Shown here piece after piece: positions 13,430 through 25,237 of a DNA stretch of 40,593 nucleotides; positions within the stretch are counted from its first letter, which is position 1, and each line of letters begins with the position of its first letter. The DNA is from an uncultured Burkholderiales bacterium. Lineage in GTDB: Bacteria; Pseudomonadota; Gammaproteobacteria; Burkholderiales; Burkholderiaceae_C. The position numbers and the translations under genes were made by a program. The stretch lies in assembly GCA_903887325.1 (NCBI GenBank), contig CAISPG010000085.1, positions 1-40,593 on the forward strand, in the 5' to 3' direction. The notes under the pieces were generated by a model. That model did not search any database. It was given only the letters and a program-made list of their open reading frames with translations, and was not told the DNA's origin.

Positions 13430-14695
13430 TCAATAAGTCTCCAACTGCAACCTGCCCTCTTGCTTCAATCTCTCGGCGACAGAAGTCCAATCCAAACCCG
13501 CACCCACAGCGATGTCGTGCATGGCCTGCAACACACCTTCTTCCATGCTCTTCAAACCGCAGACATAAAAATGCGTTTGCGGGTCTTGCAGCATGGCGGC
13601 CAATTGTGCGGATGCATCCCGCATCGCGTCTTGCACATAGCGCTTCGGCGCGCCGGGTGTGCGTGAAAAAGCAAAGTGAATGTCAATGAAATCTTTGGGC
13701 AGTTTTTGCAAAGGCCCGAAGTAAGGCAACTCTTGCTGCGTGCGTGCGCCGAAAAACAGCAGCAGCTTGCCGCCTGCAAATTTGCCGCTGGCCTGTATGC
13801 GTCTGCGCCACTCGGTCATGCCGCGCATGGGTGCACTGCCGGTGCCGGTGCAAATCATCACGATGTGGCTGCCGGGGTGGTTGGGCATCAAAAAGCTGCT
13901 GCCAAACGGGCCTATCACTTGCACGCTATCACCGGTTTTCAAATTGCACAAATAGTTGGAAGCCACGCCTTTCACGGCCTGGCCTTGGTGGTCTTGCACC
14001 ACGCGTTTCACGGTCAATGACAGGTTGTTGTAACCGGGGCGCTCGCCGTTGCGCGGGCTGGCCACTGAATATTGACGCGCATGATGCGGCTTGCCATTCA
14101 CGTCCACGCCGGGCGGCACGATGCCCACCGATTGGCCTTCGAGCACCGGAAACGGCATGCTGCCAAAGTCCAGCACGATGTGGTGTGTTTCGTTGTCTGT
14201 GCCGGGCTCATTCACTTGCATATTGCCGACCACCGTCGCGGTAATGGGCGACTTGGGGCCATGCAAATTGGTGTACGGATGCGCGGCAGACCAAGGCGGT
14301 ACGGTAGCCCCCAATGATGCTGCGTTGACCACGGGCGCATTGGCAGTGGCAGGCACAGACGTGGCCGCTGTTTCAAACGCTGTGCTACCTGACACTTGCG
14401 AATTGGCTTGCAATGCATCCACCGCTTGCGCGGCAGGCAGTTCGTCCCAAGACAGTTGTTCTGTTAAAGAATACGCTTTGCTGCGCAACACTGGCAACCA
14501 ATGGTCAATCGAACCTGTGGGGCACGGCGGCACGCAAGCCATGCAGTGGTTGCATTTGTCCGGGTCGACCACGTAGTTGCGGCTGTCGTGCGTGACAGCA
14601 CCCACCGGGCAAGTGGCTTCGCAGGTATTGCAGCGTATGCACACCTCGGGGTCGATCACGTGTTGCTGTAGCAGTTCGGCGATTTCTGTACTCAT
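13430..14695 (-). CDS. boxA: Benzoyl-CoA 2,3-epoxidase reductase component BoxA
   Basis: A 421-residue reductase that passes electrons from NADPH to BoxB in the aerobic CoA-dependent benzoate pathway. Two [4Fe-4S] ferredoxin motifs stand at the N-terminus (Cys19, 22, 25, 29 and Cys48, 51, 54, 58). A low-complexity Ala/Pro linker spans about 80-140. A ferredoxin-NADP reductase-like half follows, with the FAD motif [15 protein letters not shown] at about 218 and the nicotinamide motif [11 protein letters not shown] at about 282. Its length and domain order match BoxA of Azoarcus and Burkholderia. It is the last of the minus-strand box genes, 600 bases downstream of boxB; that gap is unusually long and is filled with hairpin repeats. 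Two toxin-antitoxin pairs lie beyond it. Confidence 0.95.
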
Positions 14696-14850
14696 GGCTT
14701 GATTCTGTGTTCGTGTTGTTGCGATTGTGTCTGTAATTGCTGTGGTTTTGTGCTGAGCTTCGTTTTGTACTCAGCAGTGGCTTTTGCTGAGTACAGATTT
14801 TCTGAGTGCAGGTATTCGGAGTGCAGGTTTTATGCTGAGCTCTAGGCCAC

Positions 14851-14911
14851 GCAGGCCGGGGCCAGGCTCCTCATGACGCAAGCTTTAAATCGTCGCCCGA
14901 CCCCGGCCTGC
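14851..14911. repeat. Hairpin repeat unit 1 (inverted orientation)
   Basis: Arms GCAGGCCGGGG (14851-14861) and CCCCGGCCTGC (14901-14911) are perfect reverse complements around a 39-base loop. Loop bases 14869-14894 are the exact reverse complement of 15042-15067 in unit 2, so units 1 and 2 are opposite-facing copies of one element. Confidence 0.8.
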
Positions 14912-15023
14912 ATGTCCTCTGCGAAGAAGCGTCCTGTGTTTACGGTACCTCACAAGCTGAGACGGCAGTGAAAGTGCATTTTCCGATTCAAGCGCACGCC
15001 AATGAAGCAGTTCGCAGCGTGGT

Positions 15024-15086
15024 GGCAGCGGCAGGCGGGGTGACGATTTAAAGCTTGCGTCATGAGGAACCCCGCCTGTCGTTGCC
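15024..15086. repeat. Hairpin repeat unit 2
   Basis: An 18-base left arm (15024-15041, starting GGCAGCGGCAGG) pairs with 15069-15086 with two non-Watson-Crick positions, both of which could be G-U in RNA, around a 27-base loop. The loop matches unit 1 in reverse complement over 26 bases. Confidence 0.8.
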
Positions 15087-15198
15087 GCCAAGCGGGTTCA
15101 GCACCTAAGCAAGTCACAACTCAAACTACACCACCATCGACACGCCGGTTCAGCAAAAGCAAAACCTTGCACACCAGTCACGCGATTCGCAGCACGGT

Positions 15199-15260
15199 GG
15201 CAGCGGCAGGCGGGGTGACGATTTCAGCTCGCTGTATGAGGAACCCCGCCTGTCGCTGCC
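15199..15260. repeat. Hairpin repeat unit 3
   Basis: The left arm 15199-15216 is identical to that of unit 2. The right arm 15243-15260 pairs with a single G-U-type position. The loop has diverged. Homology to unit 2 extends outside the stem on both sides (TTCGCAGC before, GCGGGTTCAG after), giving a direct repeat of about 100 bases with a 175-base period. It ends about 35 bases from the boxB stop. Confidence 0.8.
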
Positions 15261-15295
15261 GACGCGCGGGTTCAGTGCACCAGCAGGTTGAGCAA

Positions 15296-16723
15296 TCAGT
15301 TGAACCGCACATACTCAAAGTCCACCGGCTGACGATTGATACCCATCGCAGGCGGCGCAATCCAGTTAGCGAACTTGCCCGGCTCCACCACCCGGCCCAT
15401 CAGGCTTTGCACAAACGCACGATCTTCCGCTGTGGGCAACCACTCGCCCACCTTGGCACTCCATTCCTGCTCAGACACCACACGGCCATCCGGCGACACC
15501 TTGGCGCCAGACAAAGCGCCGATGTTGCGGTGAAACGCCTTGTGCGGCACGCTCAGGCGGTGCGGCAAACCGGCTTTCTCGATCACACGGTTCCAACGCT
15601 CGACACCGCCCACCGAATCCTTGATGTAGTCATCGCGCAGCACTTCATTCAGCGCATTCAGCATAGGCACTTCTTTTTCTTGCAACTGGCCATTGGCCAC
15701 GTGCAACACCTTGTAAGTCTGACCGCGCAACATGTGATCATCATCACGCTTGCCTTCTTCATAGCGGCCTTTGATACCTGTCGAATAAAAGGTCGCTGCG
15801 TTGCTCGACTCATCCGCACCAAACAAATCAATCGTCACGCTGAAGTGGAAATTCAAATAGCGCTGCAAAGTAGGCAAATCGATCACGCCTGCCGCGCGCA
15901 GTTTGCCCACGTCGTCGGTTTTCATCTCGTTCATCGCCGCGCAGGTACGTTGAATGATGCGGCTGATGCCGGACTCGCCGACAAACATGTGGTGCGCTTC
16001 TTCGGTCAGCATGAATTTGGTGGTGCGCGCCAGCGGATCGAAACTGCTTTCCGCCAAAGCGCACAACTGGAACTTACCGTCGCGGTCGGTGAAATAGGTG
16101 AACATGAAAAAGCTCAACCAATCGGGCGTCTCTTCGTTGAAGGCTTGCAGGATGCGCGGGTTGTCTTCCTGACCGCTGCGCCGCTCAAGCAGCGCCTCGG
16201 CTTCTTCGCGGCCATCGCGGCCGAAATGTTTGTGCAGCAAATACACCATGGCCCATAAATGGCGGCCTTCTTCCACGTTGATTTGAAACAAGTTGCGTAA
16301 GTCGTACATGCTTGGCGCAGTCTTACCTAGGTGGCGTTGCTGCTCGACAGATGCGGGCTCGGTGTCGCCTTGCGTGACGATGATGCGGCGCAAATTGGCA
16401 CGGTGTTCGCCGGGCACGTCTTGCCAGGCCTTCTCGCCTTTGTGGTCACCGAAGTGAATATTGCGGTCGGCCTCTCCGTGGTTCAAGAAAATGCCCCAAC
16501 GGTAGTCGCGCATTTTCACGTGACCGAACTGCGCCCAGCCTTGCGGGTCCACGCTGACAGCGGTGCGCAAATACACCTCGCTGTCGGTCGTGCCTTCAGG
16601 GCCCATGTCGTCCCACCAATTGATGAAGTTGGGCTGCCACTGTTCCAAGGCGCGTTGCAAAGTGCGGTCGCCGCCTAAGTCCACGTTATTGGGAATTTTT
16701 TCGCTGTAGTTGATGGCTGACAT
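15296..16723 (-). CDS. boxB: Benzoyl-CoA 2,3-epoxidase oxygenase component BoxB
   Basis: A 475-residue class I di-iron oxygenase that converts benzoyl-CoA, oxygen and BoxA electrons to 2,3-epoxybenzoyl-CoA. Paired Glu/His iron ligands are visible in NVEEGRHLWAMVYLL (residues 150-164) and MLTEEAHHMFVGESG (about 238-252). The C-terminus GINRQPVDFEYVRFN is characteristic. The length equals that of known BoxB proteins. The start at 16723 is preceded by GGAGTCACTC with a GGAG ribosome-binding site. It lies between boxC, with a 105-base gap filled by a REP-like palindrome pair, and the hairpin-rich gap before boxA. The arrangement C-B-A in one direction suggests a single transcript. Confidence 0.96.
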   Translation of the reverse strand: MSAINYSEKIPNNVDLGGDRTLQRALEQWQPNFINWWDDMGPEGTTDSEVYLRTAVSVDPQGWAQFGHVKMRDYRWGIFLNHGEADRNIHFGDHKGEKAWQDVPGEHRANLRRIIVTQGDTEPASVEQQRHLGKTAPSMYDLRNLFQINVEEGRHLWAMVYLLHKHFGRDGREEAEALLERRSGQEDNPRILQAFNEETPDWLSFFMFTYFTDRDGKFQLCALAESSFDPLARTTKFMLTEEAHHMFVGESGISRIIQRTCAAMNEMKTDDVGKLRAAGVIDLPTLQRYLNFHFSVTIDLFGADESSNAATFYSTGIKGRYEEGKRDDDHMLRGQTYKVLHVANGQLQEKEVPMLNALNEVLRDDYIKDSVGGVERWNRVIEKAGLPHRLSVPHKAFHRNIGALSGAKVSPDGRVVSEQEWSAKVGEWLPTAEDRAFVQSLMGRVVEPGKFANWIAPPAMGINRQPVDFEYVRFN

Positions 16724-16752
16724 GAGTGACTCCAGAGTGTTTTAAAGATTTA

Positions 16753-16829
16753 AATTAATTGGGGTCAGACCCCAATTAATGCTTGATGAAATGTGAAGGG
16801 AATTAATTGGAGTCTGACCCCAATTAATT
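16753..16829. repeat. REP-like palindrome pair between boxC and boxB
   Basis: 16753-16770 (AATTAATTGGGGTCAGAC) and 16812-16829 are perfect 18-base reverse complements. Each half is itself a near-perfect smaller palindrome (16753-16780 and 16801-16829), so the layout is REPIN-like: two palindromes facing each other. The core GGGGTCAGA/TCTGACCCC is shared with the element inside metG at 22366-22429. The right end touches the boxC stop codon. Confidence 0.75.
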
Positions 16830-18493
16830 CAGACGCGGTTCATGTCAAAAGCGGCTTTCTCGCCTTTGCCGTAGACCTTTAATGCGCCTTTGTCGCCAAC
16901 CGCGTTCGGGCGGTTGAATATCCAGTTTTGCCAGGCCGACAAGCGGCCGAAGATGCGCGTTTCCATGGACTCTTTTTGGCTGAAGCGCAAGTTCGCTTCC
17001 AGGCCAGTGAGTGAGTCGGGCGACATGGCCGCGCGTTCTTCGATGGCGATGCGAATTTCATCCGCCCAATCGATGTCGTCCGGCGCGGCTGTGACCAAGC
17101 CCAGTGTCAACGCAGTGTCCGCGTCCAGCATCTGACCGGCAACGGCGCGCACCGCTTCGAGTGGCGCTGTCTCTTCGTAAAACCGACGCTGTAAGCGCGA
17201 CTGGTGATTCACCATGGGTAACAAGCCCATATTCATTTCACTCAAAGCGATATGGGGAGCGGTGTCCGGTGAGTCCGGCAAGGCCAGCATATAAGCGCGG
17301 TCAGCGGCAAACGCCAATTCGGCCAGCGTGCCTGCAAAGCAAGAGCCTTCATCAATCAAGGCAAACATGGAACGCGAGGACACGTCCAGGCGCGCCAGCG
17401 TACGACGCAGCAAGCCTATGGTTTCTTTCACCAGCCAATGGCTTTGGTGTTGCAACAAAATCGCGTCGGATTGCAGCGCCAGATGGGCATCGCCTTGGGT
17501 ACACAGTAACCAGGTGCCTATGTCTAGTTCGTTGGTGCGCAAACTCAAAATCGCGTCATCTAATTCACGCGCCATTTGCAGCGGGTACCAGCTGTCACCG
17601 GCAGCATGAATATCCGCCAGCGTGGCTGGTAATGCAGCCACAGGCGCTGACACGCACAGGGTGGCGGTGCGTTTCTCGCGGTCTATGTCGACTTTCACAT
17701 AGGTGTAGTGCAAGCCATCTGCGGTCACGGTTTTATTCAACGGATTGAGCTTGACGCCCTGGCCTTTGGCGACGCCACCGGCGCGTTGGCCAGTCACGGC
17801 CAGTTGCGCCGCGCGGGCTGCAACCGCTGTGGTGAATTGCGCAGGTTTGGCAATCGCGTCCACCAAGCGCCAATCGACGGCACGCTGGCCGCGCACGCCT
17901 TCGACGCTGGTGCAAAACACATCGGCGTGGTCGTGGCGCACATGGCGCTTGTCGGTGATGCGGGTCAAACCACCGGTGCCGGGCAGCACGCCAAGCAATG
18001 GCACTTCAGGCAGCGACACGCTGCTGGAGCGGTCGTCGACCAGCAATATCTCGTCACACGCCAAAGCCAATTCATAACCGCCACCGGCACACGCGCCATT
18101 GACCGCCGCCAGAAATTTCAAACCGCCGTGGCGACTGCTGTCTTCCAAACCATTGCGTGTTTCATTGGTGAATTTGCAAAAGTTGACTTTCCATGCGTGC
18201 GTGGACAAACCCAACATAAAGATATTCGCACCAGAGCAAAAAATGCGATCCTTCAGGCTGGTGACGACCACGGCTTTCACCTCGGGGTGCTCGAAACGCA
18301 AACGTTGCACCGCGTCGTTCAGCTCTATGTCCACGCCCAGGTCATAAGAATTCAGCTTGAGTTTGTAGCCGGGCAGGATGCCGCCGTCTTCTTGTATGTC
18401 CAGCGACAAGGTGGCGATCTCGCCATCCGCTTTGAAGGACCAATGGCGGTAGTGTTCCGGGCTGGTCTGGTAATTGACAGAGAAATCGGTCAT
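16829..18493 (-). CDS. boxC: 2,3-Epoxybenzoyl-CoA dihydrolase BoxC
   Basis: A 554-residue enzyme of the crotonase superfamily that opens the 2,3-epoxybenzoyl-CoA ring hydrolytically, giving 3,4-dehydroadipyl-CoA semialdehyde and formate. The N-terminal crotonase-like part shows DRIFCSGANIFMLGLSTHAWKVNFCKFTNETRNGLEDSS (read in two parts) at about 112-150, then AAVNGACAGGGYELALACDEILLVDD at about 158-185. A second, degenerate crotonase-like half follows after about 300. Length and motifs fit BoxC. It starts at ATG 18493, 98 bases downstream of boxR, and a palindromic operator candidate sits in that gap. It is the first structural gene of the minus-strand box unit. Confidence 0.95.
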   Translation of the reverse strand: MTDFSVNYQTSPEHYRHWSFKADGEIATLSLDIQEDGGILPGYKLKLNSYDLGVDIELNDAVQRLRFEHPEVKAVVVTSLKDRIFCSGANIFMLGLSTHAWKVNFCKFTNETRNGLEDSSRHGGLKFLAAVNGACAGGGYELALACDEILLVDDRSSSVSLPEVPLLGVLPGTGGLTRITDKRHVRHDHADVFCTSVEGVRGQRAVDWRLVDAIAKPAQFTTAVAARAAQLAVTGQRAGGVAKGQGVKLNPLNKTVTADGLHYTYVKVDIDREKRTATLCVSAPVAALPATLADIHAAGDSWYPLQMARELDDAILSLRTNELDIGTWLLCTQGDAHLALQSDAILLQHQSHWLVKETIGLLRRTLARLDVSSRSMFALIDEGSCFAGTLAELAFAADRAYMLALPDSPDTAPHIALSEMNMGLLPMVNHQSRLQRRFYEETAPLEAVRAVAGQMLDADTALTLGLVTAAPDDIDWADEIRIAIEERAAMSPDSLTGLEANLRFSQKESMETRIFGRLSAWQNWIFNRPNAVGDKGALKVYGKGEKAAFDMNRV

Positions 18494-18570
18494 GGCGCTT
18501 CCTTGGGTTGTCCGGGTCAGTCAAGCTACTCGGCTCTCGAAGCTGAGCATCATCCTGCATTACAGGCATT

Positions 18571-18596
18571 CATTAATGCACAATAATGCATTAATG
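18571..18596 (-). promoter_or_regulatory. TGCA-N6-TGCA operator candidate upstream of boxC
   Basis: CATTAATGCA (18571-18580) and TGCATTAATG (18587-18596) are exact reverse complements with a 6-base spacer. The site overlaps the boxR stop codon and lies 78 bases upstream of the boxC ATG. A promoter-like TTATTG (18584-18589) with an 18-base spacer to TAATGC on the minus strand would overlap it, which suits a repressor. From memory, operators of BoxR and BzdR in Azoarcus are built on TGCA half-sites. Confidence 0.6.
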
Positions 18597-19364
18597 AAGC
18601 GATTCGCAATATTTTTTAAGCGCATGAAAACTGTCTTCCTGCGATTGCGCGCTGGTGTCCAGCTGCCAATCGGCGCGGGCGTAGTACGGGCTGCGGTCTT
18701 GCAAAATGCGGCGCAAATCGCCCATGGCCTCGGGGCTGGCCGCCATCGGGCGGGTGTCGCCCTGGGCCACGACGCGCGCCATGTGGTCTTCGGGCGTGGC
18801 TTGCAGCCAGACGGTGAAGCACTGCGCCAACAGCAACTGGAAACTGGCATCGTCGGACACCAGACCGCCCGGCGTGGCCAGCACGGCCAAAGGGTTTTGC
18901 GCCAGACTGTCCTCCAGCGCGCGCCGCTCGTAGCGCCGGTAAGCCTGCGGTCCGTACAAACCGTGGATTTCGCTGATGCTGCAACCGGCCAGGGTTTCAA
19001 TGACGCGGCTGATTTCGATGAACACAAAGCCGAGTTCGCGCGCCAGACGCTGGCCCAGCGTCGACTTACCGGCGCCGCGCAACCCGATGAGCGCAATATG
19101 CTGATGCCGCGCCGTGCCGCTGGCGGCTTCTTCTTCCAGCAAACTGACCAGCCCGCATTGCAAGGCCTTGGCCACTTGCAACAACACCAGCACCGAGGCG
19201 TTGCCGGTGCCGGACTCCAAATTGGCCCAATGCCGCTCTGACACCTGAGCACGGGCGGCGGCGGCTTTGCGCGTGAGTCCACGCCGCGCCCGCAAGGCGC
19301 GCACACGCTCGCCCAAAGCGGTCAGGTAAGGGTGTCGTTCTTCGGCGGATGAGGGTAAAGCCAT
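18591..19364 (-). CDS. boxR: BoxR: XRE regulator fused to a shikimate-kinase-like domain
   Basis: A 257-residue transcriptional regulator. Residues 16-75 form a Cro/C1-type helix-turn-helix (VRALRARRGLTRKAAAARAQ, then VSERHWANLESG). After a short linker, residues 88-255 resemble shikimate kinase, with Walker A GLRGAGKST at 94-102 and ISRVIETLAG and LYGPQAYRRYE following. This layout is that of BoxR and BzdR, which repress benzoate genes and are released by benzoyl-CoA bound to the kinase-like domain. True shikimate kinase is excluded by the HTH and the box context. Its start codon is only 4 bases from a TGCA-N6-TGCA site, and a second site overlaps its stop, so it probably controls both itself and boxC. 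No clear Shine-Dalgarno precedes the ATG. Confidence 0.92.
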   Translation of the reverse strand: MALPSSAEERHPYLTALGERVRALRARRGLTRKAAAARAQVSERHWANLESGTGNASVLVLLQVAKALQCGLVSLLEEEAASGTARHQHIALIGLRGAGKSTLGQRLARELGFVFIEISRVIETLAGCSISEIHGLYGPQAYRRYERRALEDSLAQNPLAVLATPGGLVSDDASFQLLLAQCFTVWLQATPEDHMARVVAQGDTRPMAASPEAMGDLRRILQDRSPYYARADWQLDTSAQSQEDSFHALKKYCESLH

Positions 19365-19365
19365 G

Positions 19366-19383
19366 AATGCACTTTAATGCATT
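19366..19383 (-). promoter_or_regulatory. TGCA-N6-TGCA operator candidate at the boxR start
   Basis: AATGCA (19366-19371) and TGCATT (19378-19383) are exact reverse complements with a 6-base spacer, matching the inner 18 bases of the site upstream of boxC in arms and spacing. It sits 1-19 bases upstream of the boxR ATG and occupies the place where a ribosome-binding site would be. Confidence 0.6.
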
Positions 19384-19399
19384 ACGACTGGCTTGCCAA

Positions 19400-20491
19400 T
19401 CAGGTGTTGGCCGATACTTTGATGGTCGGGAATTTCGACGAAAAGTCCTTGGCTTTGGCCGCCACCTTCACGGCCAACTGGCGCGCCACGGCTTTGTAAA
19501 TACCGGCGACCTCACCATCCGGCTCGGCCACCACGCTGGGCAGACCGCTGTCGGCTTGCACGCGTATGGCCATGCTCAGTGGCAAGGCGCCCAAATACGC
19601 CATGCCTTCGGCCTGCGCCATTTTTTTACCACCTTCAGCGCCGAAGATGTGTTCGGCATGGCCGCACTGGCTGCACATATGCACCGCCATGTTTTCCACA
19701 ATGCCCAAAATAGGCACGCCGACTTTTTGGAACATGCGTATGCCTTTCATGGCATCGATCAAAGCGATGTCTTGCGGTGTGGTGACGATGACCGCGCCGG
19801 TCAGCGGCACACGCTGGCTCAATGTCAACTGAATGTCGCCGGTGCCGGGTGGCATATCGACGATCAAATAGTCCAGGTCACGCCAATTGGTTTGACGCAG
19901 CAACTGCTCCAGCGCTTGCGTGGCCATGGGGCCGCGCCAGACCATGGCCTGGTCTTGCGCCACCAGAAAACCGATGGACATGACTTGCACGCCGTGGGCT
20001 TCCAGCGGCTGCATGGTTTTGCCATCACTGCTCTCAGGCCTGCCGGACAAGCCCATCATCATCGGCTGGCTGGGGCCGTAAATATCCGCATCCAACAACC
20101 CCACGCTCGCGCCTTCGGCGGCCAGCGCCAAGGCCAAATTGGCAGCGGTGGTGGATTTGCCCACGCCGCCTTTGCCCGAGGCCACGGCGATGATGTTTTT
20201 CACTTGCGGCAACAATGCCACGCCCGGTTGTGCGGCATGCGCCACCACCTGGCTGCTGACCGTCACCTTCACCGATGTCACACCCGGCACTTGCGACACC
20301 ACGTGCTCGAGTTGTTGTTGAAACGAAGCCCACAAACTTTTAGCCGGGTAACCCAGCACCAGATCAAAACTGACAGCGCCGTTATGGATGACGATGTTTT
20401 TAATGGCTTTGGCGGCGACAAAATCCTGGCCGGTCAGCGGGTCCGCCACAGATTGCAAGGCGAGGGTAATGTCTTGTTCGGTCACGGCCAT
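19400..20491 (-). CDS. apbC: Iron-sulfur cluster carrier ATPase ApbC/Mrp
   Basis: A 363-residue P-loop protein of the Mrp/NBP35 family that carries [4Fe-4S] clusters to apo-proteins. The N-terminal MIP18-like domain covers residues 1-85. The deviant Walker A GKGGVGKST is at 106-114, LLDADIYGPSQPMMMGL follows at about 135, and DMPPGTGDIQLTLSQ at about 215. The cluster-binding CxxC is MCSQCGH near residue 263. ATG 20491 is preferred to an upstream in-frame ATG at 20566 because it is preceded by GGAG and gives the usual family length. It is divergent from metG, which is a common arrangement in Burkholderiales. Confidence 0.94.
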   Translation of the reverse strand: MAVTEQDITLALQSVADPLTGQDFVAAKAIKNIVIHNGAVSFDLVLGYPAKSLWASFQQQLEHVVSQVPGVTSVKVTVSSQVVAHAAQPGVALLPQVKNIIAVASGKGGVGKSTTAANLALALAAEGASVGLLDADIYGPSQPMMMGLSGRPESSDGKTMQPLEAHGVQVMSIGFLVAQDQAMVWRGPMATQALEQLLRQTNWRDLDYLIVDMPPGTGDIQLTLSQRVPLTGAVIVTTPQDIALIDAMKGIRMFQKVGVPILGIVENMAVHMCSQCGHAEHIFGAEGGKKMAQAEGMAYLGALPLSMAIRVQADSGLPSVVAEPDGEVAGIYKAVARQLAVKVAAKAKDFSSKFPTIKVSANT

Positions 20492-20668
20492 AAATACTCC
20501 AGCACTTTTGATGCAAAAAGCGGCTAGTCTAGCCAAGCGAGCGAGGCTTTTGCGACCGCGCCGCACAAGACCGCTTTGATCGCAAGGGTCAGTCGCCTTC
20601 TATTTCAAACAAGTGGCTGCACCGCGCCGCATAAAATCGCCGTTTCCCCTGACCGAATACACCAGCTT

Positions 20669-22879
20669 ATGAGCCAGCGACGCCTGTTTGTCACCACCGC
20701 CTTGCCCTATGCCAACGGCCATTTCCACATCGGCCACATGATGGAATACATACAGGCGGACATCTGGGTGCGGTTTCAGCGCATGCAAGGACACGCGGTG
20801 AATTTTGTCTGCGCTGACGACACGCATGGCGCGCCCATCATGATCGCGGCTGAAAAAGCAGGCAAGACGCCGCAGCAATTTGTCGCCGACATCGCCGCCG
20901 GACGCGCTCAGTACCTGGACGGTTTTCACATCAGTTTTGACAACTGGCATTCCACCGACGCACCCGAAAACCACGCCCTTGCGCAACAGATTTACCGCGA
21001 CCTGCGCGATTTGTCTGCCGAGCAAGGCGGCACGCTGATAGAGCGCAAAACCATAGAGCAGTTTTTCGACCCGGAAAAAAACATGTTTTTGCCGGATCGC
21101 TTCATCAAAGGCGAATGCCCGAAATGCGGCGCCAAAGACCAGTACGGCGACAACTGCGAAAACTGCGGCGCGGTGTACGCGCCCACCGATTTGAAAAACC
21201 CATACTCGGGCTTGAGCGGTGCCACACCGGTACTGAAACACGCCGAGCATTTTTTCTTCAAGCTCTCCGACCCGCGTTGTGTGGAGTTTTTGCAAGACTG
21301 GACGCAAAACGGCACACACTTGCAGCCCGAGGTGGCGAACAAGGTGAAGGAATGGTTCAGCGTTCGCAGCAACCCGGACGGTACTACCAGCGAAGGTCTG
21401 GGCGACTGGGACATCAGCCGTGACGCGCCTTACTTCGGCATTGAAATACCGGATGCACCCGGCAAATATTTTTATGTCTGGTTGGATGCGCCCATAGGCT
21501 ATTTGGCTTCTTTGAAAAATCTGCTGGACAAACGCGGAGAAAGTTACGACGACTACATCACGGCGCAAGACGTTGAGCAATACCACTTCATCGGCAAAGA
21601 CATCGTCACGTTTCATACGCTGTTTTGGCCGGCGATATTGAAATTCAGCGGCCGCAAAACGCCGGACAAAGTGTTTGTCCACGGCTTTTTGACGGTGAAC
21701 AACGGCGAGAAGATGAGCAAGAGCCGGGGCACAGGCCTGGACCCGTTGAAATACCTGAAGCTGGGCATGAACCCCGAGTGGCTGCGTTATTACCTGGCGG
21801 CCAAGCTCAACGGGCGCAATGAAGACATTGACTTCAACGCCGAGGACTTCATGGCGCGGGTCAACAGTGATTTGGTGGGTAAATACATCAACATCGCCTC
21901 GCGTGCAGCGGGGTTTATTGCCAAGCGGTTTGAAGGCAAGTTGGGTGCGGTCAGTGATGACGGTCAGGCATTGCTAGCGCAACTGCAAAGCAAATTAACT
22001 GCGGTGGCCGATCTGTATGACCAACGCGATTACGCCAAAGCCTTGCGCGACACCATGGCGCTGGCCGACCGGGTGAATGAATATGTAGACGCGAACAAAC
22101 CTTGGGAACTGGCCAAGAAACCGGACATGGACGCGCGTTTGCAAGATGTGTGCAGCACCTGCATTGAGGCCTTCCGTCTGCTGAGCACGATGCTCAAACC
22201 GGTGCTGCCGCAACTGGCTGCACAAGTGGAAAGCTTTTTGAAGATTGAGCCCATGACCTTCAGCAATGCGTCCAAGCCCTTGGGTGCGGGTCACGTGATT
22301 GGCAACTACGCGCATTTGATGCAACGTGTGGACGAGAAGATGCTGAATGCCTTGTTTGAGGCGCCGGATAAATTGGGGTCAGACACCGATTTTCCGAAGG
22401 AAAACTCGGGCTCTGACCCCAATTTATCCATCCCCGGCGGCGTAAACAAAGCCCCCTCGGTCGGCGCTGACGCGTCCTCCCTGCCCCCCGAGGGGGGCAT
22501 CCTCGCCTTGGGGCGGCCCGGCGGCGAGGACATCGCCCCCATCATCACCATCGACGACTTTGCGAAGATCGATTTGCGCATTGCCTTGATCGTCAACTGT
22601 GAGCCAGTGGAAGGCAGCACCAAGCTGCTACGTTTGACGCTGGATGTGGGTGAAGGCCGCATGCGCAATGTGTTCAGCGGCATCGCCAGCGCATACAAGC
22701 CCGAAGACCTGATCGGCAAACACACGGTCATGGTCGCCAACTTGGCGCCGCGCAAAATGAAATTCGGCGTGTCTGAAGGCATGGTGCTCGCCGCCTCGCA
22801 CGCAGACGAAAAAGCACAGCCCGGCATTTACGTGCTCCATCCCTGGCCGGGCGCAACGCCTGGCATGCGCATCCATTGA
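20669..22879 (+). CDS. metG: Methionyl-tRNA synthetase with translated REP-like linker
   Basis: A 736-residue class I synthetase that charges tRNA(Met). The HIGH motif is HFHIGH at 18-23. The zinc knuckle is [17 protein letters not shown] at about 150-166, and KMSKS is at about 348-352. The anticodon-binding helical domain runs to about 560, and a C-terminal EMAP/Trbp111-like tRNA-binding domain ([19 protein letters not shown], then GMVLAAS) starts at about 625. ATG 20669 ([18 protein letters not shown]) is the start by homology; the frame is open further upstream from a TTG at 20576. Residues 566-621, the linker between the last two domains, are encoded by two different palindromic repeats (22366-22429 and 22482-22529). 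A -10-like TAAAAT lies at 20632-20637, without a good -35. Confidence 0.96.
22366..22429. repeat. REP-like palindrome inside metG, shared core with boxC/boxB element
   Basis: GGATAAATTGGGGTCAGA (22366-22383) and 22412-22429 are perfect 18-base reverse complements around a 28-base centre, whose inner parts (GATTTTCC and GGAAAACTC) also nearly pair. The element is read in frame and gives [10 protein letters not shown] and GSDPNLS in the protein. The GGGGTCAGA core matches 16761-16769. Confidence 0.8.
22482..22529. repeat. GC-rich double palindrome inside metG linker
   Basis: TGCCCCCC (22482-22489) and GGGGGGCA (22492-22499) form a tight stem with a 2-base loop. CCTCGCC (22501-22507) and GGCGAGG (22523-22529) form a second stem. 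I associate the pattern with an intergenic repeat abundant in Comamonadaceae genomes. Here it is translated as part of [18 protein letters not shown]. Confidence 0.7.
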
Positions 22880-22889
22880 AAAGCGCCTC

Positions 22890-23522
22890 ATGACCACAGC
22901 AGCGGTGTTACTGGCCGCCGGTTCGGGTTCGCGCATGGGTCACAAGCCCAAGTCGCTGTTGGAGCTGAATGGCGAGCCGCTGATACGGCGCAGCGCCCGC
23001 CAACTGCTGGACGCCGGTGTGACGCAACTGGTGGTGGTTCTCGGTCATTACGCCGCCGACATAGAAGCACAGCTGGACGACCTGCCGGTGCACAAGATCT
23101 ACAACCCGGACCCCGACATGGGCTTGGTATCGTCGCAGCGTCTGGGTTTGCAAGCCGTGAACGCTGATACCGACACGGTGGTGATGTCACTGGCCGATCA
23201 ACCGCTGGTCAACACCGACGACATACACACCTTGCTGCAAGCGTTTGCTCAACGTGCAACAGATACCGACATGCTGTTCCCATGGGTCAACGGCCAACCC
23301 GGCAACCCGGTGTTGCTCAGCGCACGCGCACGCGCAGACATACTGGCGGGTGAGAGCGACTACGGTTGCAAGGAATGGCGACAAAGCCATGCGTCGCAAG
23401 TTGAAAAATTTCCCAGCGACAACCTGCACTTCATCACCGACCTGGACCGGCCTGAAGACGTAGCCGGGTTTGAAAACACACACGGCATGAAACTCCAATG
23501 GCCGCCCGCCTGGACAGACTGA
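22890..23522 (+). CDS. MocA/MobA-like nucleotidyltransferase
   Basis: A 210-residue NTP_transf_3 protein. The nucleotide-binding N-terminus is VLLAAGSGSRMGHKPKSLLELNGEPLIRR (read in two parts) at residues 6-34. A VVVLGHYAADIEAQL segment follows, then DMGLVSSQRLGL and the metal-binding MSLADQPLVNTDDI near residue 95-108. The relatives add CMP or GMP to molybdopterin (MocA, MobA); a similar protein, PucB, helps xanthine dehydrogenase maturation. No molybdoenzyme gene is near, so the exact cofactor is not decided. It starts 10 bases after metG and is probably co-transcribed with it. Confidence 0.78.
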   Translation: MTTAAVLLAAGSGSRMGHKPKSLLELNGEPLIRRSARQLLDAGVTQLVVVLGHYAADIEAQLDDLPVHKIYNPDPDMGLVSSQRLGLQAVNADTDTVVMSLADQPLVNTDDIHTLLQAFAQRATDTDMLFPWVNGQPGNPVLLSARARADILAGESDYGCKEWRQSHASQVEKFPSDNLHFITDLDRPEDVAGFENTHGMKLQWPPAWTD

Positions 23523-23590
23523 CTCGCTAGATATGAACCACTGTTGATTTTCATCAGCAGTTACCGCCATAAGCGGGCGTATAGTGAAAC

Positions 23591-25237
23591 ATGCTTCAGC
23601 TTTCGGCTTTCCGACCCAAACTGATAGACGCATTGCGCGGCTATGACCGCCAACGATTTTTCAAAGACTTGGGCGCGGGTTTGACGGTCAGCGTGGTGGC
23701 TTTGCCCATCTCCATGGCGTTTGCGATTGCCTGCGGGCTCAAGCCCGAGGCTGGTCTGGTCACCGCCATCGTCGCCGGTTTTCTGACGGCTGCTTTAGGC
23801 GGCAGCCGGGTGCAAATCAGCGGCGCGGCAGGCGGTTTTGTCGTCATGGTGTACGGCATCGTTCACATGCACGGCATCAACGGTTTGATGCTGGCGACCT
23901 TGATGTCGGGCTTTTGGTTGCTGCTCATGGGCGTGCTGCGTCTGGGTGTGCTGATTCGCTTCATACCGGTGGCTGTGATCACCGGCTTCACCAATGGCAT
24001 TGCCGTGTTGATCGGCATGTTGCAGCTCAAAGACTTTCTGGGCCTGCCCATACAAACCATGCCGGCCGATGTGTTTGGCATCGTCAGCGTCATTTCAACG
24101 CATTTAAACCAGACCGATACAGCTACGTTGGCGCTGACGCTATGCAGTTTGCTGGTGTTGGTGTTTTGGCAACTGCTGATGCCGCGCTGGCTAAAGCCTT
24201 CAATGTCGCAACGCCTGTCATTGGTACCTGGCCCCATGCTGGTGATGTTGCTGGCCACGGCGCTCACTTACTCAACAGACTGGCCAGTCGCCACCATTGG
24301 CAGTCGCTTCGGTGGCATTCCCTCAGGTCTGCCAACTGTGAGCTGGCCAGATTTGTCCTGGGCGCAATGGCAAGCGGTGTTGGTGCCGAGTTTCACGCTC
24401 GCGTTGCTCGGGGCCATTTCCTCGCTGCTGTGCGCCCGAACCAGCGACAACATGATCGGCGATCGGCATGACCCGAACCAAGAATTGATGGCGCAAGGTT
24501 TGGCCAATATGGTGATGCCGTTTGTCGGCGGCATGCCTGCCACCGGCGCATTGGCGCGCACCGTCACTAACGTGAAAAACGGTGCCAGCAGTCCGGTGGC
24601 CGGTATGGTGCATGCGCTGGGGCTGTTGTTGATTGTGTGGTTGGCTGCGCCGCTGGTCTCGCATTTTCCCTTAGGTGTGTTGAGCGCTTTGCTGCTCTTT
24701 ATCGCCTGGAACATGGGGGACTGGCGTGCGTTTGTGCGCTTGTCGCAGTTTCGCTGGCCTTACCGGTTTACCTTGTTGGCGGTGTTTATGCTGACCGTAC
24801 TGGTCGACCTCACCGCTGGCATGGCGGTGGGTCTGATCGGTGCATGTCTGACTTTCATCTACCGCATCTCCAACCTGACGCACAGAAAGTTGCTGCACGC
24901 CACCGCGCACACACAAGTGTGGGCTTTGAACGGGGCCTTGTTTTTTTGGGCGGTTGATTTGTTAGAGCAAACAACCCAGAATTTGCCGGAGAAAACACTG
25001 GTGTTGGAGACCAGTGGTCTGATTTACATCGACTCCAGCGGTGCTGATGCCCTGCACAGCTTGCTCAGCCGTTGCGAGCAGCAACAGGTGCAACTTATTC
25101 TTTGCGGGCTCAACCCGCAGCCGTTAGATATCCTTGAGCGAACCGGTTTGCTGGTCAGGCTCACGCCAGAACATGTGGTTATGGATTGGCAGCTGGCCTT
25201 AGACGTGCGCCAGATAGTTTCACATCACAGTGTTTGA
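23591..25237 (+). CDS. SulP-family anion transporter with STAS domain
   Basis: A 548-residue SulP (SLC26-like) membrane carrier for sulfate, bicarbonate or other anions. The opening DLGAGLTVSVVALPISMAFAIACGLKPEAGL stretch (residues 27-57, read in two parts) and GSRVQISGAAGGFVVMVYG contain the conserved substrate-binding region between transmembrane helices 1 and 3. About 12-14 hydrophobic segments reach residue 430, with the late GGMPATGALARTVTN motif at about 312. A cytoplasmic STAS domain fills about 445-545, with VLETSGLIYIDSSGADALHS, including the conserved Asp-Ser-Ser-Gly. Substrate cannot be decided; no carbonic anhydrase or cys gene adjoins it. A -10-like TATAGT (23580-23585) lies very close to the ATG. 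Confidence 0.9.
   Translation: MLQLSAFRPKLIDALRGYDRQRFFKDLGAGLTVSVVALPISMAFAIACGLKPEAGLVTAIVAGFLTAALGGSRVQISGAAGGFVVMVYGIVHMHGINGLMLATLMSGFWLLLMGVLRLGVLIRFIPVAVITGFTNGIAVLIGMLQLKDFLGLPIQTMPADVFGIVSVISTHLNQTDTATLALTLCSLLVLVFWQLLMPRWLKPSMSQRLSLVPGPMLVMLLATALTYSTDWPVATIGSRFGGIPSGLPTVSWPDLSWAQWQAVLVPSFTLALLGAISSLLCARTSDNMIGDRHDPNQELMAQGLANMVMPFVGGMPATGALARTVTNVKNGASSPVAGMVHALGLLLIVWLAAPLVSHFPLGVLSALLLFIAWNMGDWRAFVRLSQFRWPYRFTLLAVFMLTVLVDLTAGMAVGLIGACLTFIYRISNLTHRKLLHATAHTQVWALNGALFFWAVDLLEQTTQNLPEKTLVLETSGLIYIDSSGADALHSLLSRCEQQQVQLILCGLNPQPLDILERTGLLVRLTPEHVVMDWQLALDVRQIVSHHSV

Follow-up and report, generated by a model that had tools for sequence, protein, structure and literature searches.

Rickettsia palindromic elements were reportedly described by Ogata in 2000 and 2002. 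They are about 150 bp long and are translated in frame inside unrelated housekeeping proteins, as outlined in the available part of PMC10969869. According to the available text of PMC3733652, from 2013 and attributed to Di Nocera et al., other bacteria carry REPs within uvrA, dnaE2, RNA helicases and tRNA synthetases, probably at linkers and loops. An earlier note on the present DNA had named Rickettsia as the precedent for in-frame insertion; translated palindromes are indeed known there, but the precedent is wider, given the genes listed in the 2013 report. According to the same text, the intragenic REPs include GTAG and CGTC types, which are often dimers encoding 20-30 amino acids, the GTAG REPs are linked to REP-associated tyrosine transposases (RAYTs), and some Rickettsia palindromic elements end in CGTC. 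None of six Burkholderiales-related names was found in its main text. The accessible part of PMC3116915 describes how two inverted REPs form hairpins called REPINs and how a RAYT is flanked by repeats, and REPINs and RAYT recognition are treated in that of PMC8266576. None of the titles and abstract openings listed by searches of the open-licence literature mentioned a GGGGTCAGA family, a REPIN in a MetRS linker or, for Limnohabitans, translated REPs.

This study examined a 64-base palindrome within the methionyl-tRNA synthetase gene of the window, i.e. the whole stretch of 40,593 nucleotides that was analysed (Table 1). We interpret the palindrome, with good confidence, as a REPIN of the GGGGTCAGA family that is kept together with a RAYT; a stop-free version of it has entered the metG linker in frame and would add a flexible, polar stretch, tolerated by the enzyme, to the protein. 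Like the intragenic REPs in the available text of PMC3733652, the elements are short and palindromic, would be translated, and lie in uvrA, helicase and tRNA synthetase genes. They differ from those REPs in their GGGGTCAGA core, in the lack of GTAG and CGTC, in their stop-free coding form and in their repeated insertion in the same hrpA, uvrA and metG loops. As in the REPIN/RAYT systems of PMC3116915, in the part available, an inverted REP pair forms a hairpin and a RAYT is flanked by repeats. With Rickettsia palindromic elements, as the available sources present them, the family shares palindromic DNA read in frame in unrelated housekeeping proteins, but its elements measure about 64 bp, a RAYT is present in the genome and the hosts are Limnohabitans relatives. 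In contrast to CGTC-tagged REPs and to the Rickettsia elements RPE-4 and RPE-6, the element has no CGTC end. As translated REPs were already described in 2013 (PMC3733652, available text), the apparent novelty lies in a REPIN lineage that is adapted to coding and returns to the same loops.

Table 1. Position of the repeats and of their host gene in the window.
Feature	Coordinates	Strand	Evidence
metG, methionyl-tRNA synthetase, 736 aa, host gene	20669..22879	+	ORF, Pfam, NCBIfam
REPIN-like element, two inverted GGGGTCAGA repeats forming a hairpin, in frame in metG	22366..22429	+	repeat search, folds, relatives without it, copies in other genes
Left GGGGTCAGA core of the metG element	22375..22383	+	pattern search
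Right GGGGTCAGA core of the metG element, inverted	22412..22420	-	pattern search
Second in-frame insertion, GC-rich repeat (...TGCCCCCCGAGGGGGGC...GCCTTGGGGCGGCCCGGCGGCGAG), CCCGGCGGCG at both ends	22433..22530 (approximate)	+	presence/absence, family search, alignment
Intergenic REPIN of the same family (AATTAATTGGGGTCAGACCCCAATTAAT...)	16753..16829	+	repeat and pattern searches; between two minus-strand ORFs

With regard to the host gene, the ORF listing begins at an upstream TTG, and the ATG at 20669 was chosen by us as the start. The product matches PF09334, PF19303 and PF01588 of Pfam, with Anticodon_3 at residues 426-544 and tRNA_bind at residues 636-715, and scores 899 bits against the NCBIfam MetRS model NF001100 (cut-off 587). 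The earlier note had described an 18-base perfect inverted repeat in the linker between the anticodon-binding and C-terminal tRNA-binding domains, which adds residues without breaking the frame, and this description holds. The outer 18 bp pair perfectly, the centre is paired further, and the element codes for residues 567-587 (21 aa), in frame, between the two domains. The repeat search delimited arms of 28 nt each (22366-22393 and 22402-22429), which are 89% complementary and separated by 8 nt. With two REP units in inverted orientation that can form a hairpin, the element has the structure of a REPIN. The computed folding energy of the element is -43 kcal/mol for RNA, with a z of -10.9, and -26.4 for DNA, with a z of -10.8, and in both cases none of 200 shuffles was as good.

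In the metG element, the frame in use has a mean hydropathy of -1.42 and is thereby more hydrophilic than the other two frames of its strand (-0.52 and -0.04). In a MetRS structure predicted from 41 sequences, which is modest overall (mean pLDDT 71), residues 551-628 have a pLDDT below 50 and neither helix nor strand is present at 563-627; the linker is predicted to be disordered. The protein is presumably made as read from the metG frame. A search of positions 16000-24000 against Rfam returned zero families at gathering cut-offs, and the matches below the cut-offs, to microRNA-type hairpin families and two sRNA families, were so far below the gathering scores that they were dismissed as chance resemblance. 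No tRNA or tmRNA genes were found across the window. Among plasmid and phage records, no match to the 64-mer was obtained at E 0.001, and a plasmid or phage origin is therefore unsupported.

The GGGGTCAGA core occurs four times in the window, against 0.22 occurrences expected, and none of 100 shuffles reached four. Two of these cores belong to the metG element, and the other two, at 16761-16821, to the intergenic REPIN between the minus-strand ORFs 16829-18493 and 15296-16723, named boxC and boxB in the earlier note, which had already pointed to the core at their junction. In the own genome, TTGGGGTCAGA occurs 10 times vs 0 for the reversed control, and each of six relatives has 5 to 34 occurrences, with 0 or 1 for the control. 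The own genome also holds other copies that are 89-90% identical to the metG element, which answers the question of further copies that had been raised beforehand; together with the repeat in 10 of 66 MetRS linkers, the core count bears out the view of a dispersed element that landed in an essential gene. Both the length and the sequence of the linker vary naturally, as would be expected if an ordinary variable linker had acquired a palindrome by chance or by tandem-repeat expansion. Nevertheless, the fold z of -10.9, the copies elsewhere in the genome, the core count against its reversed control and a 55/56 identity between unrelated genes refute this explanation, to which we attach almost no probability.

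A single unit of the family looks like ATTAATTGG-GGTCAGANN-CCAATTAAT, and inverted pairs of such units form REPINs. Our core survey of seven genomes examined 97 of 98 cores, G079:C136 having been left out: 13 are in metG, 20 in hrpA and 64 elsewhere, the latter being mostly apparently intergenic, with a few isolated cores inside unrelated ORFs. At one place in the own genome (L006, G000:C10:3335-3401), an ORF, which we take to be bioD, ends within a REPIN that provides its last residues (NWGQTPI) and its stop codon. Several GGGGTCAGACCCCGATTTTCC-type units were also seen outside long ORFs in the Rickettsiales-labelled MAG C-132 (L193, L200, L217 and L218, with four units within about 220 nt in L218), which represent either the same core in a different host or contamination. 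The REPs of SBW25 are almost all extragenic, with 14 of 1,067 occurrences overlapping genes in the available text of PMC3116915, whereas 33 of the 97 cores surveyed here lie inside two genes.

The presence of the element in metG was compared across a set of 84 genomes of one genus, probably Limnohabitans, many of which are metagenome assemblies. A MetRS protein search gave a match at E<=0.001 in 83 of the 84, although several matches reach E values only near 1e-6 and may come from other proteins. Linkers were taken from 67 loci, of which 66 were readable (L046, from genome G022, was unreadable). Their length ranges from 66 to 192 nt and is a multiple of 3 in every case; 31 of the 66 have a plain 66-nt linker, the repeat is present in 10 and it is absent from 56. 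Judged from these sequences, the metG palindrome is an insertion. The suggested check for absence of the residues from most related MetRS thus had a positive outcome, and neither finding that had been named as a refutation, i.e. conservation of the residues in distant MetRS with diverged DNA or a lack of further copies, was seen.

When mapped on a 50-row MetRS tree from which the linker had been excluded, the repeat state requires at least 7 changes, gains and losses not being told apart. This tree is a quick build with 14 of 47 inner branches open, and about 8 of its 50 rows were chosen because they bear the element; some of them may share the genus. It was derived from 78 loci, of which 27 were dropped by pattern and L152 was omitted as a duplicate. 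The dropped loci comprise 25 from the genus (24 without the repeat and the unreadable L046) and the repeat-bearing L163 and L173.

Within metG linkers, the repeat has been rearranged: L018 and L019 have additional arms, L017 has lost the centre and L072 retains half an element. The paired arms are lost in three of the ten REP-bearing linkers (L017, L072 and L079). The form in L048 and L079 is diverged, has CAATTG arms and is in our view a separate insertion. By its arms, the element is present in metG in both orientations. The insertion replaces or rewrites some linker residues; its boundaries are not clean, and there is no clean empty/filled pair for the REPIN. MetRS presumably tolerates it as a flexible polar stretch.

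The earlier reading is extended in two respects: the same linker contains a second repeat, and the same element has entered several other proteins. The second, GC-rich repeat was found in 5 of the 66 linkers: L016 and L017 contain both it and the REPIN, whereas L021, L023 and L025 lack the REPIN. L081 is the empty twin of L023 for this insertion. The CCCGGCGGCG found at both of its ends might be read as a target-site duplication, as in a MITE, but the repeat itself also ends in this sequence. Of 150 family genomes, 95 contain its 3' 18-mer, while the control gave a single match overall. Among 12 fetched repeats, 11 align to the metG GC-rich stretch with 79-90% identity over 39-82 nt, and the twelfth aligns over 23 nt; one of the fetched repeats lies in the MetRS linker of a different genus (L386). 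The GC-rich insertion has no unusual fold (z -0.8). Dispersal of this repeat within its own genome was considered, yet that genome has just a single exact copy and another that differs at 2 positions; it is dispersed in the family instead. Since the REPIN and the GC-rich repeat both lie inside the metG linker, one linker took in two unrelated dispersed repeats. The end CCCGGCGGCGAG of the GC-rich repeat equals the PGGE codons of the linker itself, and the insertion may use that homology. Elsewhere in the window, a cluster of GC-rich inverted repeats (e.g. GGTGGCAGCGGCAGGCGGGGT) occupies 14844-15267, between ORFs 13430-14695 and 15296-16723.

The 56-nt core AAATTGGGGTCAGANNCCGATTTTGCGNAGCAAAACTCGGGCTCTGACCCCAATTT or close forms of it were found in hrpA (at two sites), uvrA, icmF and metG, where the frame stays open through the element in intact host genes. 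Host identities were assigned with Pfam and NCBIfam (HrpA, TIGR01967; UvrA, TIGR00630; IcmF, NF045497). Across 27 distinct copies, the best between-gene matches span 52 to 55 of 56 positions, with 55/56 for hrpA-metG and hrpA-uvrA, 54/56 for metG-uvrA and 53/56 for hrpA-icmF. Close copies are also present in gspE of another genus (L375, TIGR02533) and at a third hrpA site in a Rhodoferax MAG (L171), and at least five unrelated proteins (metG, hrpA, uvrA, icmF and gspE) hold close copies in the same reading frame. Diverged arms also occur in two Burkholderiales MAGs, one of which has them in an error-prone DNA polymerase (L159, NF004225) and the other in an ORF that looks similar (L204). L185, with a lipoyl ligase domain, has a single arm in frame and was excluded from the gene list.

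HrpA site A lies between GETGSGKTTQ and TQPRR, where the solved HrpA structure 9ggr has two residues (120 to 123). The length of this site varies from 3 aa (L306, L308) to 64 aa (L340), and all sites above 20 aa are REP-bearing except L311 (22 aa). The UvrA loop was readable by pattern in 28 of 30 loci, 9 of which contain a REP or REP remnant; it measures 11-15 aa when empty and up to 43 aa when filled. In the own genome, hrpA site B (L014, G000:C97:1-200; L003, G000:C32:1-200) combines a REPIN with tandem 36-nt units (AAAKKAGSDPNF) that have a REP core, and the assembly breaks at this site, the two parts being the ends of two contigs. The C-terminal half of UvrA in L258 (uvrA of G065) contains GLMQRHSERSEEAQNSS, which, we assume, resembles the translation of another common bacterial repeat.

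The near-identity of copies between genes is also what the main rival explanation predicts. According to this explanation, the coding copies stem from one or a few old insertions and were spread among metG, hrpA, uvrA and icmF by gene conversion or by template switching at the palindrome, with no transposase involved. Hairpins favour template switching, elements have been rearranged, duplicated and partly deleted in place, and the resemblance of copies in different genes could equally result from gene conversion among them. However, the host genes belong to unrelated families, so that homology outside the element is not expected, and the copies in gspE of another genus and at the additional hrpA site of the Rhodoferax MAG, as well as the two orientations in metG, judged by arms, speak against it. 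We consider spread by gene conversion or template switching possible but rather doubtful.

The copies inside genes also differ from most others in their stop codons, as expected of the RAYT-linked, stop-free REPIN that we favour. LGSD or SDPN is the phase used by all 33 metG and hrpA cores of the seven genomes. Across a span of 38 nt, the LGSD phase is stop-free in 32 of these 33 cores vs 13 of the 64 elsewhere, and the SDPN phase in 32 of 33 vs 11 of 64; the closure of both phases elsewhere is mainly due to TTAATTG and CAATTAA in the intergenic arms. Although 44 of the 64 other cores and 27 of the 33 metG/hrpA cores are open in the NWGQ phase, no metG/hrpA core uses it. Fisher's test for openness of the LGSD phase gives 4e-14, a value that overstates the case, as the copies are related. 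The tails at hrpA site B of G018 and G082 are in another phase (NRDLTPI and NRNLTPI), so the one-frame rule is not absolute.

A peptide query, which is biased towards open copies as it is itself the stop-free form, had matches at E<=0.1 in 21 of the 84 genus genomes. At E<=0.001 it matched 31 places, tallied by hand as hrpA 23, metG 3, uvrA 3 and icmF 2, two of them read antisense; in this genus search, the full stop-free form was found inside genes only. One arm of the form, TTGGGGTCAGANNCCGATTTT, was found in 68 stretches of a bacterial genome collection, several of which come from genomes also in the genus set. By hand, 29 were placed in genes (metG 14, hrpA 12 and uvrA 3), and many of the remainder look noncoding or due to chance, some being labelled Limnohabitans (L167, L205). 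A single arm of the coding form is not coding-specific. Across 399 family genomes, 6 match the coding form, the own genome included, which indicates that it is concentrated in this genus; of the other five matches, three fall within ORFs that are 507, 1417 and 1107 aa long, and those in G169 and G153 in a stop-bearing or 45-aa frame.

The RAYT gene that the earlier note had proposed to look for is present. The own genome has one Y1_Tnp match, which reaches 82.3 bits against the REP-associated tyrosine transposase model NF047646 (cut-off 80), and a RAYT homologue was found in 74 of the 84 genus genomes. A slightly looser core pattern occurs within 1.5 kb of the RAYT in 28 of 30 loci, compared with 10 of 30 uvrA and 12 of 30 metG loci, where only part of the matches are due to insertions in those genes. 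The cores next to the RAYT of the own genome have the sequence GGGGTCAGG or GGGGACAGA instead of GGGGTCAGA, and the bases after the core are unlike those of the coding form. In view of this difference, we regard it as no more than likely that this RAYT is cognate to the coding-form repeats.

A GTAG tag is absent from the metG and box copies with 10 nt on either side and from all 32 coding elements; among the 38-nt contexts, it was found in 1 of 33 and in 2 of 64. Likewise, CGTC is absent from the metG copy with 10 nt on either side and from the 32 coding elements, and occurs in 0 of 33 and 6 of 64 such contexts, with one reverse match near the box copy. As the GTAG tag is typical of RAYT-linked REPs, its absence makes the RAYT link one of position only. 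The lack of both tags places the family outside the two tagged super-families in the available text of PMC3733652, though it works alike.

The very stable hairpin lies at a domain boundary, and in the 27 distinct 56-nt copies pairing is largely kept except at a variable dinucleotide and in the centre. The element might accordingly have been kept because it is useful, as a flexible spacer between MetRS domains or as an mRNA hairpin that pauses translation between them. We regard such a function as distinctly unlikely, because many close relatives are without the element and the paired arms are gone in 3 of the 10 REP-bearing metG linkers; in addition, the same element occurs in HrpA and UvrA loops. 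The variation of the dinucleotide alters the encoded residues (T, P, S; D, E) and is also seen in other copies, and a conserved functional peptide was considered unlikely because of these residue changes and of the loss of paired arms in some orthologues. The inserted peptide probably has no function of its own.

Under the favoured reading, a translatable, RAYT-linked REPIN lineage would land in genes, the RAYT probably moving the element as single-stranded DNA. The insertions that survive would be those in loops and in the polar frame, and they would then decay or multiply in place. Natural selection, rather than the insertion step, is probably what leaves mainly loop insertions in the LGSD frame. 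A more far-reaching proposal, which we put forward only tentatively, is that RAYT-linked REPINs of Limnohabitans-type bacteria have adapted to proteins: they may have lost the stops of their intergenic relatives, settled on one hydrophilic frame and spread between loops of essential enzymes, many of which act on nucleic acids.

Given that unrelated REP families have been reported in the same gene kinds (uvrA, dnaE2, RNA helicases and tRNA synthetases), these proteins may have a tolerance in common, or there may be a common targeting step. The pairs of close relatives with and without the element open three questions to testing: whether the insertions bring a cost, a benefit or neither, whether a RAYT moves them, and why unrelated repeat families strike the same kinds of genes. 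If our reading is correct, mobile DNA repeatedly writes new protein stretches into essential enzymes, in one reading frame and in one genus.
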